The notes beneath the pieces were generated by a model, which did no database searches, was not told where the DNA came from, and saw only the letters and a list, made by a program, of their open reading frames with translations. Of a stretch of 64,000 bases of DNA, positions 41,264 to 43,906 are shown piece by piece. Both the position numbers and the translations under genes were made by a program. Source of the DNA: Rhodospirillales bacterium (lineage in GTDB: Bacteria; Pseudomonadota; Alphaproteobacteria; Rhodospirillales; Shumkoniaceae); the NCBI GenBank assembly GCA_018432935.1, contig JAHDSF010000023.1, positions 1 through 64,000 of the forward strand, read 5' to 3'. Every line of letters starts with the position of its first letter. Within the stretch, counting starts at the first letter, position 1.

Positions 41264-42232
41264 TTACTTCTTGTACGCGTCGATGATCGCCTTGCCATCG
41301 GCGCCGGCCCGGCTTAGCCAGCCATCGGTCATCGTCTCGCCGACCTTCCTGAGGCTCGCCTTCAGCTCGGGGCTCGGATCGGAGACCTTGAGGCCCCCGG
41401 CCTTGAGCTCGGCGATCTTGGCCGAGGTCTCGGCCATGCTCATCTGCCAGCCCCGCTCCTGCGCCTTGGCGCCGAGGTCGAGCAGGGTCTTCTGCAGATC
41501 CTTGTCGAGGCGCTGGAAGGCCCGCTTGTTGACCAGGATGGCATTCTTCGGAAGCCATGCCTGGGTGTGATAGAAGTGCGTCAGGTAATCCCAGGCCTTG
41601 CTGTCGACGCCAGTGGTGGGCGAGGTCATCATCGCTTCCACGCGCCCGGTCGAGAAGCCTTGCGGGATGTCGGGCACTTCGATCTGCGTCGGCACCATGC
41701 CCAGGTTCTGCGCCAGCTGCTCGCCTGCCTTGTTCTGAGCCCGGAACTTGAGGCCCTTGAGGTCGGCGGCGGTGTTGATCTCCTTTTTCGTGTAGAGACC
41801 CTGCGGCGGCCACGGCACCACGTACAGCACCATGATGCCGTCCTTGTCGAACAGCGTCTCGATCTGCTTCTTGGAAGAGGCCCACAGTTTCTTGGCGTCG
41901 TTGTAGTCGGTGGCCAGGAACGGGACCGCGTCGAGGCCGAACACCGGGTTTTCGTTCTCCAGCAGCGACATCAGGATCTCGCCCATCTGAACCTGACCGC
42001 CGCGCACCGCATTCTTGATGTCCGGGTGCTTGAACAACGAGCCGTTGGGATGGACGGTGATCTCGAGCTTGCCGCCGGTTGCCGCCTTCACCTCGTCGGC
42101 GAACTGCATGATGTTGACGGTGTGGAACGTCTTCGGCCCGTAGGGCGTCGGCATGTCCCACTTCTCGGCCACGGCAGGCGTTGCGGCCAGGCCGACCAGC
42201 AGCCCCGCCGCAACCAGCGCTTTCAGGTGCAT
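41264..42232 (-). CDS. TRAP transporter substrate-binding protein (DctP)
   Basis: Protein of 322 residues with a signal peptide (about 1-22, cleavage after AVA). The conserved carboxylate-binding arginine lies in ADLKGLKFRAQN (about residue 160), and the fold-specific TSPTTGVDSKAWDYLTHFY block follows. AGGAGGG precedes the ATG. Linked to a biotin-dependent decarboxylase, it probably binds a dicarboxylate or a related organic acid. It differs clearly from the SiaP-like protein: the TRQTT and QENP sites are absent. Confidence 0.92.
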   Translation of the reverse strand: MHLKALVAAGLLVGLAATPAVAEKWDMPTPYGPKTFHTVNIMQFADEVKAATGGKLEITVHPNGSLFKHPDIKNAVRGGQVQMGEILMSLLENENPVFGLDAVPFLATDYNDAKKLWASSKKQIETLFDKDGIMVLYVVPWPPQGLYTKKEINTAADLKGLKFRAQNKAGEQLAQNLGMVPTQIEVPDIPQGFSTGRVEAMMTSPTTGVDSKAWDYLTHFYHTQAWLPKNAILVNKRAFQRLDKDLQKTLLDLGAKAQERGWQMSMAETSAKIAELKAGGLKVSDPSPELKASLRKVGETMTDGWLSRAGADGKAIIDAYKK

Positions 42233-42498
42233 GGAACCCTCCTAGTTTTTTTATGACGTCAAACCCAGAAGCCGCGGAAAGGTTGGGCTAGGCCCGCGCG
42301 GCAGTCAACGCAAAATTAAGCACAACTCGTGCCAACGCCGGGGTCGACGGCAACTGCTCCGAGCCGGCGAAGGCGCGCCGGTCAAAAAACCGGCATTTGC
42401 CTATTCGGCGGGCCGCCGGGAGAACGGAGGAAATACTCTCCGGTCGGATACACCTGCGACGAATTCTGCCGCCGATTCAACGCCCCTGTGCAAGACCC
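42233..42498. other. Upstream region of the TRAP/decarboxylase operon
   Basis: No gene is supported. The minus strand carries the dctP ribosome site and, further up, an AT-rich stretch (42300-42325) that could contain its promoter; TTGACT (42311-42306) is a possible -35 without a good -10. A small hairpin GCCGGT/ACCGGC with loop CAAAAA lies at 42377-42394. Confidence 0.5.
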
Positions 42499-42547
42499 TG
42501 TGGAAAAGCTGTTTGTGAATTGTGGCAATGTCCAATAAATATTCACA
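42499..42547. other. AT-rich patch with clustered DnaA-box-like words
   Basis: TGTGGAAAA (42499-42507, one mismatch to the box complement), TGTGAATTG (42514-42522, two mismatches) and ATATTCACA (42539-42547, one mismatch to TTATTCACA) lie within 49 bases. A further CTATCCACA (one mismatch) is at 43240-43248, on the other side of the structured region. No replication initiator gene or iteron array is present, so an origin is not claimed. Confidence 0.3.
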
Positions 42548-42585
42548 ACTTTTCGTCGTATGCCAGAAGAATCCCCGTTGCCCTC

Positions 42586-42630
42586 AAAAGAAAAGTACGG
42601 CACCCTCGAAGCTGTACGTGAAAGGTGCCG
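42586..42630 (-). terminator. Terminator-like hairpin closing the structured region (minus strand)
   Basis: On the minus strand CGGCACC (42630-42624) and GGTGCCG (42604-42598) form a stem with a 19-base loop, followed at once by TACTTTTCTTTT. The long loop weakens the case. Confidence 0.45.
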
Positions 42631-43205
42631 ATCCGGTTTCACTTGGTGAAGAGAAGGTCGGACTAGCTTCGGGCTCCCCTTCCTCGAGTGAAAGCGGCCT
42701 CTGAAAGACAGCTCCTCGGAGCGGCCTTTCGGGGAGACGGCCGGGGGGAAGAGCTTCGGCTCGAAACTCTGGTCGTCTGGCGAGGGGGATCCCGTTCCCG
42801 ACGAACGGGTTCGCATTCACCCTGGCAAACCTTTTCGGAGGGGCGTCGGGGTTGCCGTCCGCTTCCACCGCTCGGGGCGCGGAAGCCGCGGCAGGGACCG
42901 ATGGCGGCGCGATCCTCCGCGACGCAAGTTCGGTTCCGGGAACGTCCCGTTCCCTGGCGAGCCTGCTTCTGGGTTCGGTAAAGCCTAGCCTCGGCACCGC
43001 CGCGTCGGCCGCTTCGGCGGACGATGCGGAAACCTCGATCCGTGGTCCCGGCCGTCTGCCCAGGATGACGAGGCCGCAGGAACGAGGTAAGCGAGGAGCC
43101 GCTTGATTCACGTACACGGAGCTTGACCAGCTCCACGAGGCGTCGGGAGTTCCGGCTGACCCCGGAACGTTCGGAGGGCCTGAAAGCCCTGCGACCCGAC
43201 GCCTC
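42586..43205 (-). ncRNA. Candidate large structured non-coding RNA, about 620 bases
   Basis: No convincing protein is encoded. The region is dense with hairpins: an 11-bp stem GAGGCGTCGGG (43137-43147) with CCCGACGCCTC (43195-43205) encloses two further hairpins (43149-43168 and 43175-43190). A split helix pairs 43025-43029 and 43033-43037 with 43069-43078. Other stems lie at 43118-43134, 43089-43104, 43009-43020, 42938-42954, 42861-42886, 42791-42809 and 42751-42762. On the minus strand a promoter-like sequence precedes it and a hairpin with a T-rich tail closes it. Two stems would have C(UUCG)G loops if read on the plus strand, so orientation is not certain. It is not recognisable as RNase P, tmRNA, SRP or 6S RNA. 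Confidence 0.45.
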
Positions 43206-43207
43206 AC

Positions 43208-43236
43208 CTTGTATCAGGGTCGCCGGTCCGCCGCAA
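43208..43236 (-). promoter_or_regulatory. Promoter-like sequence ahead of the structured region (TTGCGG-N17-TACAAG)
   Basis: Minus strand: TTGCGG (43236-43231), 17 bases, TACAAG (43213-43208). Transcription would begin near 43202, at the base of the 11-bp closing stem. Confidence 0.4.
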
Positions 43237-43339
43237 TAGCTATCCACAAGATGTTGTAGCAGCCGTGGGGACGGCCTTGCGCGTCGCCGCAAAGCGTGGG
43301 ACTCTTCGCCGGCATCCCGATACCCCGCGGAAGGCGCGG

Positions 43340-43906
43340 ATGAACCTTGGCGCTGTCAGCTTCCTTGTCGTCGACGACAACCGCTTCATGCGGAACCTCG
43401 TCGTCAAGGTGCTTCGCGCCCTGGGCAGCGGCCCCACGCACGAGGCGGAGAACGGCCGCGAGGCCATTACGGCGATCCGCGCCGGCCTGGCCCCCGACAT
43501 CGCGATCGTCGATTGGGAGATGGCGCCGGTCGACGGCATCGAACTGGTCCGCTGGATCCGCAGCGCGCCCGACAGCCCCGATCGCTTCCTGCCGGTGATC
43601 ATGCTGAGCGCCCATTCGGAAATGCGGCGGGTGTCCGCGGCGCGAGACGCGGGCGTCACCGAGTTCATGGTCAAGCCGGCTTCGGCCAAGGTGATCCTCG
43701 GCCGCATCCGCGCGGTGATCGAGCGACCGCGCCGCTTCGTCAAGACCAAGGACTATTTCGGCCCCGACCGGCGGCGCCAGATCATCGATCCTCGGGGCGA
43801 GGAGCGGCGCAAGAGCGGGGCGCGACCGCAACGCGCCGACGCCATGAGCCAGGAGGCGATCAATGCCTTCTTCAACGGCGAGGCGGAGCCGCGCAAGGGC
43901 GTGTGA
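43340..43906 (+). CDS. Single-domain response regulator (CheY-like receiver) with C-terminal tail
   Basis: Protein of 188 residues. Receiver domain at about 5-125: acidic pair in VVDDNRF, phosphorylatable aspartate in IAIVDWEMAPVDG (about 57), Thr/Ser replaced by Ser in MLSAHS, lysine in FMVKPAS. The tail (about 130-188) includes FVKTKDYFGPDRRRQI and EERRKS, a basic motif common in alphaproteobacterial receiver proteins near motility genes. No output domain, so it probably acts by protein contact. ATG at 43340 has GGAAGG six bases upstream. Confidence 0.88.
   Translation: MNLGAVSFLVVDDNRFMRNLVVKVLRALGSGPTHEAENGREAITAIRAGLAPDIAIVDWEMAPVDGIELVRWIRSAPDSPDRFLPVIMLSAHSEMRRVSAARDAGVTEFMVKPASAKVILGRIRAVIERPRRFVKTKDYFGPDRRRQIIDPRGEERRKSGARPQRADAMSQEAINAFFNGEAEPRKGV

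Follow-up and report, generated by a model that had tools for sequence, protein, structure and literature searches.

Alphaproteobacteria are a class used to model the bacterial cell cycle, and large conserved noncoding RNAs of bacteria are, to our knowledge, few and mostly without a known function. Caulobacter crescentus makes CcnA, an RNA of 182 nt that is encoded inside oriC, is presumably driven by CtrA and has ctrA and gcrA as its targets (PMC8959179). DnaA-box clusters outside oriC, datA and DARS, can regulate DnaA itself, and in datA the essential DnaA boxes all point the same way, an IHF site lying between them (PMC5742627). The locus analyzed here, in which an array of candidate DnaA boxes stands upstream of a structured RNA, lies within the window, a stretch of 64,000 nt from the 5.05-Mb draft genome of a Rhodospirillales bacterium.

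The RNA occupies a gap between a TRAP transporter operon on the minus strand (DctP at 41264-42232, then DctQ and DctM) and a response-regulator gene on the plus strand (43340-43906). An earlier note on this DNA had placed a possible undescribed structured RNA of 620 bases at 42586-43236; its proposal of a structured RNA stood, and the boundaries were corrected to about 42613-43216 on the plus strand (about 603 nt), ends that we infer from the position of the promoter and from the terminator stem. No tRNA or tmRNA gene was found in the window. No Rfam 15 family covers the RNA, and no family reached its gathering threshold anywhere in the window; permissive scans of the gap (E ≤ 10) returned only chance-level fragments, the top one being Rev41 with 19.6 bits against a threshold of 535. 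The open papers searched contained no description of the RNA, which is not proof that it was never described. The RNA family appears, then, to be undescribed, as the same note had supposed, and this view is supported by the absence of a covering Rfam family together with the homologues, the covariation and the structure conservation index reported below.

Homologous sequence exists in relatives. BLASTN against 60 relatives gave no long matches, and a 38-nt piece (window positions 43112-43149) recurred in three genomes, within DNA that was plainly homologous yet highly diverged; the exact conserved core is present in three named contigs, all of them from Rhodospirillales metagenome-assembled genomes. 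A 24-base pattern taken from this piece was searched in 297 genomes of the order and located the same element in about 60 of them, one copy in each, and the complementary arm of the enclosing stem was present in nearly all loci checked. A covariance model (R2) was built on the 3' domain (P2 plus P1, P1a and P1b) from 40 training sequences, and it matched 37 of 387 genomes and 27 of 264 genera of the class. The window scores 80.2 bits with this model, partly by construction because it is one of the 40 training sequences. In a phylum-wide sample, R2 matched the window's genome and three genomes from a single additional family of the class, with two weak matches elsewhere (E 0.003-0.008). Sampling was limited to a fraction of every large group and the filters were strict, so that the distribution is a lower bound. 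Many genomes of the order are without a match (for example, those of genus g32), so that the RNA is not essential throughout the order, and a search of a plasmid collection gave zero matches. The RNA is mostly single-copy; second, diverged copies were seen in three of the genomes (L215 in G552, L216 in G677 and L217 in G302), each accompanied by an array of its own.

The degree of structure in the region is far above chance. It folds on the plus strand at -353 kcal/mol (z -6.0), with a centroid almost equal to the minimum free energy structure, and on the minus strand at -319 kcal/mol (z -3.9); the RNA at 42613-43216 folds at -331 kcal/mol. A 9-bp long-range helix, P3, closes the rest of the RNA by pairing GTACGTGAA (42614-42622, plus strand) with TTCACGTAC (43107-43115, plus strand), with pair probabilities of 0.74-1.0 in the window and of 1.0 over the first seven pairs. 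Across 80 aligned rows, some of which are the same locus fetched twice, the 5' strands of P3 fit their own 3' strand better than permuted partners (0 of 5000 permutations as good), although the relatedness of the sequences inflates this test. A conserved hairpin motif of the CTCTGCCCAGGGT type, represented in the window by CGTCTGCCCAGGAT (43053-43066, plus strand), recurs in 39 of 60 homologues at a distance of 141-156 nt from the 3' end of the RNA.

The P2 hairpin, GGAGCT-TGACC-AGCTCC (43118-43134, plus strand), is followed by the 3' domain (43137-43205, plus strand), in which P1 encloses P1b and P1a. P1 (43137-43147/43195-43205) is the 11-bp stem with two enclosed hairpins that the earlier note had described, and the hairpins are P1b (43149-43155/43162-43168) and P1a (43172-43179/43187-43193). 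Among the 40 sequences, 97% of the cells are paired in P2 and 99.3% in P1, and changes on both sides of a pair were found in 7 of 11 pairs of P1, 5 of 5 of P1b and 9 of 9 of P1a. Covarying pairs thus exist: over the 33 pairs of the 3' domain, 25 show compensatory changes and 92% of the cells are paired, compared with 35-46% for slid structures and with 0 of 500 shuffles, a test that the relatedness of the sequences again inflates. The structure conservation index was 1.04-1.35 in five of seven full-length clade alignments; it was 0.84 and 0.63 in the remaining two, the lower value coming from the set that holds the window's own family. The middle of the RNA varies in length, and the total size therefore ranges from about 0.35 to 1.25 kb. 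Two short forms were observed in genome G348, with the array as close to the 3' domain as 130 nt (L219) and 85 nt (L220), and at these loci the RNA may have a length of about 200 nt. A kissing loop joining P2 (CCUGG) to P1a (CCAGG) found no support, 1589 of 5000 permutations being as good.

The direction of the RNA had at first been unsettled, and C(UUCG)G loops on the plus strand, which were confirmed, had been weighed against signals on the minus strand. When both strands of 29 homologues were folded, the plus strand folded better in all of them (mean z -6.3 vs -2.2), and in an alignment of 40 sequences (A3) the plus strand gave 187 G-U pairs against 28 A-C mismatches, numbers that swap on the minus strand. 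By these two measures the RNA is on the plus strand, and we regard this point as settled. The minus-strand promoter and terminator of the earlier note consequently lose their role as signals of the RNA: the TTGCGG-N17-TACAAG sequence is located at the 3' end of the RNA, and the hairpin followed by TACTTTTCTTTT sits in the -35/-10 spacer of the predicted plus-strand promoter. A minus-strand RNA modeled as R1, prompted by a TTGTTG promoter, was likewise overturned by the folding and wobble counts.

A stem followed by a U-run marks an intrinsic terminator. In most relatives P1 is followed, in the plus direction, by a U-run such as CTCTTTTTTTATCA, and alignment A3 shows the corresponding tract of the window (43206-43216, plus strand) to be weak (ACCTTGTATCA); P1 and the U-tract probably form an intrinsic terminator. 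An antisense sigma-70-like element, TTGTTG-N17-TGATAAA, overlaps this terminator in many loci (L057, L050, L005 and others), with a window counterpart at about 43206-43250 on the minus strand, and it may make an antisense RNA. A GANTC (CcrM-type) site is found in the spacer of this element in 24 of 66 loci, against a 5% background. Control of the antisense promoter by GcrA and CcrM through GANTC was considered and rejected, the enrichment of the site being independent of GcrA presence.

On the 5' side, a DnaA-box array extends over 42499-42547, with TGTGGAAAA at 42499-42507, ATATTCACA at 42539-42547 and two weaker boxes at about 42513-42530; a further box-like sequence, TGTGCAAGA, lies at 42487-42495. 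The boxes were assigned to DnaA by their 9-mer sequence, and binding of DnaA is accordingly a prediction. The window array is homologous, with 2 mismatches, to the TGTGNATAA-N31-TTATNCACA arrangement of relatives, in which the order on the plus strand is TGTGGATAA-TGTGGG-TGTGTAAA-TTATNCACA; TTATCCACA is one box of the array. The array is AT-rich and helically phased, its boxes are about 11 bp apart except for the last, the outer pair is 31 nt apart in most loci, and the promoter-proximal box is inverted relative to the others. A GGGGGTAA block was also seen at a fixed position just before the array in part of the family (L050, L057, L060, L094, L095, L136, L137 and L139).

The link between the array and the RNA is rigid. 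The distance from the promoter-side box to the P3 motif is 79-82 bp in 50 of 51 loci (81 bp in the window), although the length from the RNA 3' end to the array ranges from 425 to 1324. Among the 30 most distant homologues, same-genome second copies included, the array was upstream in 24 and downstream in none, and the exact array was present in 5 of 30 class genomes with an R1 match vs 1 of 357 without (Fisher 1e-5). Rigid spacing is what a regulator-bound promoter needs, and an ungapped, array-anchored alignment of 50 loci gave in relatives a predicted promoter of the form TTGAAA-N17-CANNAT, TTG standing at the expected -35 place in 54 of 60 loci. The window counterpart is a weak match on the plus strand, TTGCCC (42578-42583) and CACCCT (42601-42606) separated by N17. 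Compared with relatives, the window copy is thus degenerate in its array, where there are 2 mismatches, and weak in both its -10 and its U-tract, and it may therefore be poorly regulated.

The fixed DnaA-box cluster beside the RNA suggests that production of the RNA is tied to replication. We checked whether the locus could be oriC itself, and this candidate was ruled out by GC skew and hemE positions, the likely origin being 0.3-0.6 Mb off in three genomes. The complete genome G048 has hemE at 0.433 Mb, inside the interval of the skew switch (0.39-0.585 Mb), and the RNA is 0.58 Mb off. In G107, hemE (1.438 Mb) again falls inside that interval (1.33-1.64 Mb), and the RNA is found at 1.042 Mb. 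In neither genome does the skew switch at the RNA locus, the switch being about 0.4-0.6 Mb from it. The distance between RNA and hemE is 0.33 Mb in G002, and in the window's genome two DnaA boxes precede hemE, which lies on a contig other than that of the RNA. In most relatives checked (L201, L202, L206-L209, L211-L214) the 2 kb upstream of hemE held no TTATNCACA or TGATNCACA box, and the origin may thus lie elsewhere near hemE in those lineages.

Taking the whole of this comparison, we consider the locus to be, with fair probability, a plus-strand gene for a stand-alone noncoding RNA, one that is controlled by DnaA and whose product acts in trans as an RNA. DnaA would bind the phased boxes about 69-121 bp upstream of the predicted start, and bound DnaA would control the sigma-70-type promoter (TTGAAA-N17-CANNAT); activation seems likelier because the boxes lie around -69 to -121. 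RNA polymerase would then transcribe about 600 nt, the long-range helix between the 5' and 3' parts would close the RNA, and the three-way-junction stem with the U-tract would end it, doubling as terminator. The product would persist as a structured molecule or ribonucleoprotein acting in trans, and its most likely task would be to relay DnaA activity or the replication state to other cell-cycle or growth functions. A bolder version, which we put forward tentatively and hold to be doubtful, is that the RNA is an ancient alphaproteobacterial readout of DnaA activity: with every round of replication, a DnaA filament on the array would turn a large RNA, serving as scaffold or catalyst, on or off. 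We know of no bacterial link between replication and physiology of this kind, through a large RNA switched by DnaA. If the proposed role of the RNA is confirmed, a large RNA would be tied to the master initiator of replication in a class that serves as cell-cycle model. The rigidly linked DnaA-box array is a strong clue that makes the role of the RNA directly testable, and annotators gain a new RNA family.

The explanation that competes best with a trans-acting RNA, although we judge it unlikely, is that the DNA is the active part: the array would titrate, inactivate or reactivate DnaA in the manner of datA or DARS, and transcription of the RNA would serve or modulate the array. A phased box array 0.3-0.6 Mb from the likely origin would suit such a site, as would the two short-form loci with their array only 85-130 nt from the 3' domain, and E. 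coli datA is itself placed near oriC, beside a tRNA operon (PMC5742627, PMC10950094). Against it, selection on structure is strong in the RNA itself, whose loops are conserved, the array is tied at fixed spacing to a promoter-like sequence, and the arrangement of the boxes is unlike that of DARS1/2 and datA.

A very improbable alternative is that the RNA is a cis-acting leader, riboswitch or attenuator, of a neighboring gene. The response-regulator gene of the window does lie downstream on the same strand, starting at 43340, and the 3' junction resembles DUF3800-VI, whose Rfam type is cis-regulatory. In relatives, for which gene names were taken from reading translations, 16 of 21 genomes have sdhCDAB beyond the array and oriented divergently from the RNA (in the window the TRAP transporter operon stands in its place), and the 3' side carries asd-leuBDC-trmD-rimM-ffh or other genes. 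The neighbor on that side is frequently convergent and varies from genome to genome, so that the RNA is no gene's leader. P1 followed by a U-tract also speaks against this explanation, and the RNA keeps company with its array where sdhCDAB is absent; the constancy of RNA and array while the neighbors change argues against a gene-specific regulator as well as a leader.

We likewise give little credence to a replication primer or accessory-origin RNA similar to ColE1 RNA II, which a long structured RNA adjoining an AT-rich DnaA-box array might suggest, since the RNA runs away from the array, G107 and G048 show no switch of skew at the locus, and the window's genome has DnaA boxes upstream of hemE on another contig. 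A minus-strand RNA started by TTGTTG/TTGCGG-N17-TGATAAA, in whose favor the antisense element is conserved in many loci with GANTC in 24 of 66 spacers, is scarcely credible, with the minus fold worse in 29 of 29 homologues, the wobble to A-C ratio reversed, its -35 absent from many loci whereas the A-rich (U-tract) side is general, and the DUF3800-VI resemblance on the plus strand in both relatives that show it.

A putatively DnaA-controlled RNA gene that is autonomous from its neighbors can be set beside four kinds of known system. DUF3800-VI (RF02915, 52 nt) resembles the 3' three-way junction, sharing GGAG-GC-GC...GC-GU-CGUU, and matched the plus strand of two homologous loci (L149:549-611 with 35.3 bits and L063:6095-6157 with 34.4, against a threshold of 35), with no match in the window or the other 34 homologous loci at the thresholds used (36 loci scanned). 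It spans roughly a tenth of the molecule; neither the window's genome (G000) nor G029 has a DUF3800 gene, and in G042 that gene is on contig C31 and the RNA on C152. We read the resemblance as a shared junction shape or as the distant relation of one domain, in what would be a different RNA. OLE, GOLLD and ROOL are similar in being stand-alone, several hundred nucleotides long and conserved in secondary structure, with no conserved coding frame seen; the RNA described here differs in having no Rfam match to any of them and a promoter linked to DnaA boxes. E. coli datA, DARS1 and DARS2 share with it a DnaA-box cluster outside oriC with conserved spacing, and differ in box order and spacing; the cluster described here is, moreover, coupled to a promoter and a structured RNA. 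Its promoter-side box points the opposite way to the rest, unlike the single orientation in datA, and the three-box cores of E. coli DARS (L176 and L177) differ by inspection in order and spacing. CcnA differs in lying within oriC and being about 182 nt long, whereas the RNA of the window, set apart by size and place, is about 600 nt long, lies 0.3-0.6 Mb from the likely origin, off the skew switch in each of two relatives, and has an array that is promoter-linked and outside the transcript. CcnA, a noncoding RNA of an alphaproteobacterium with a gene tied to DnaA boxes and to the cell cycle, nevertheless appears to be the nearest precedent.
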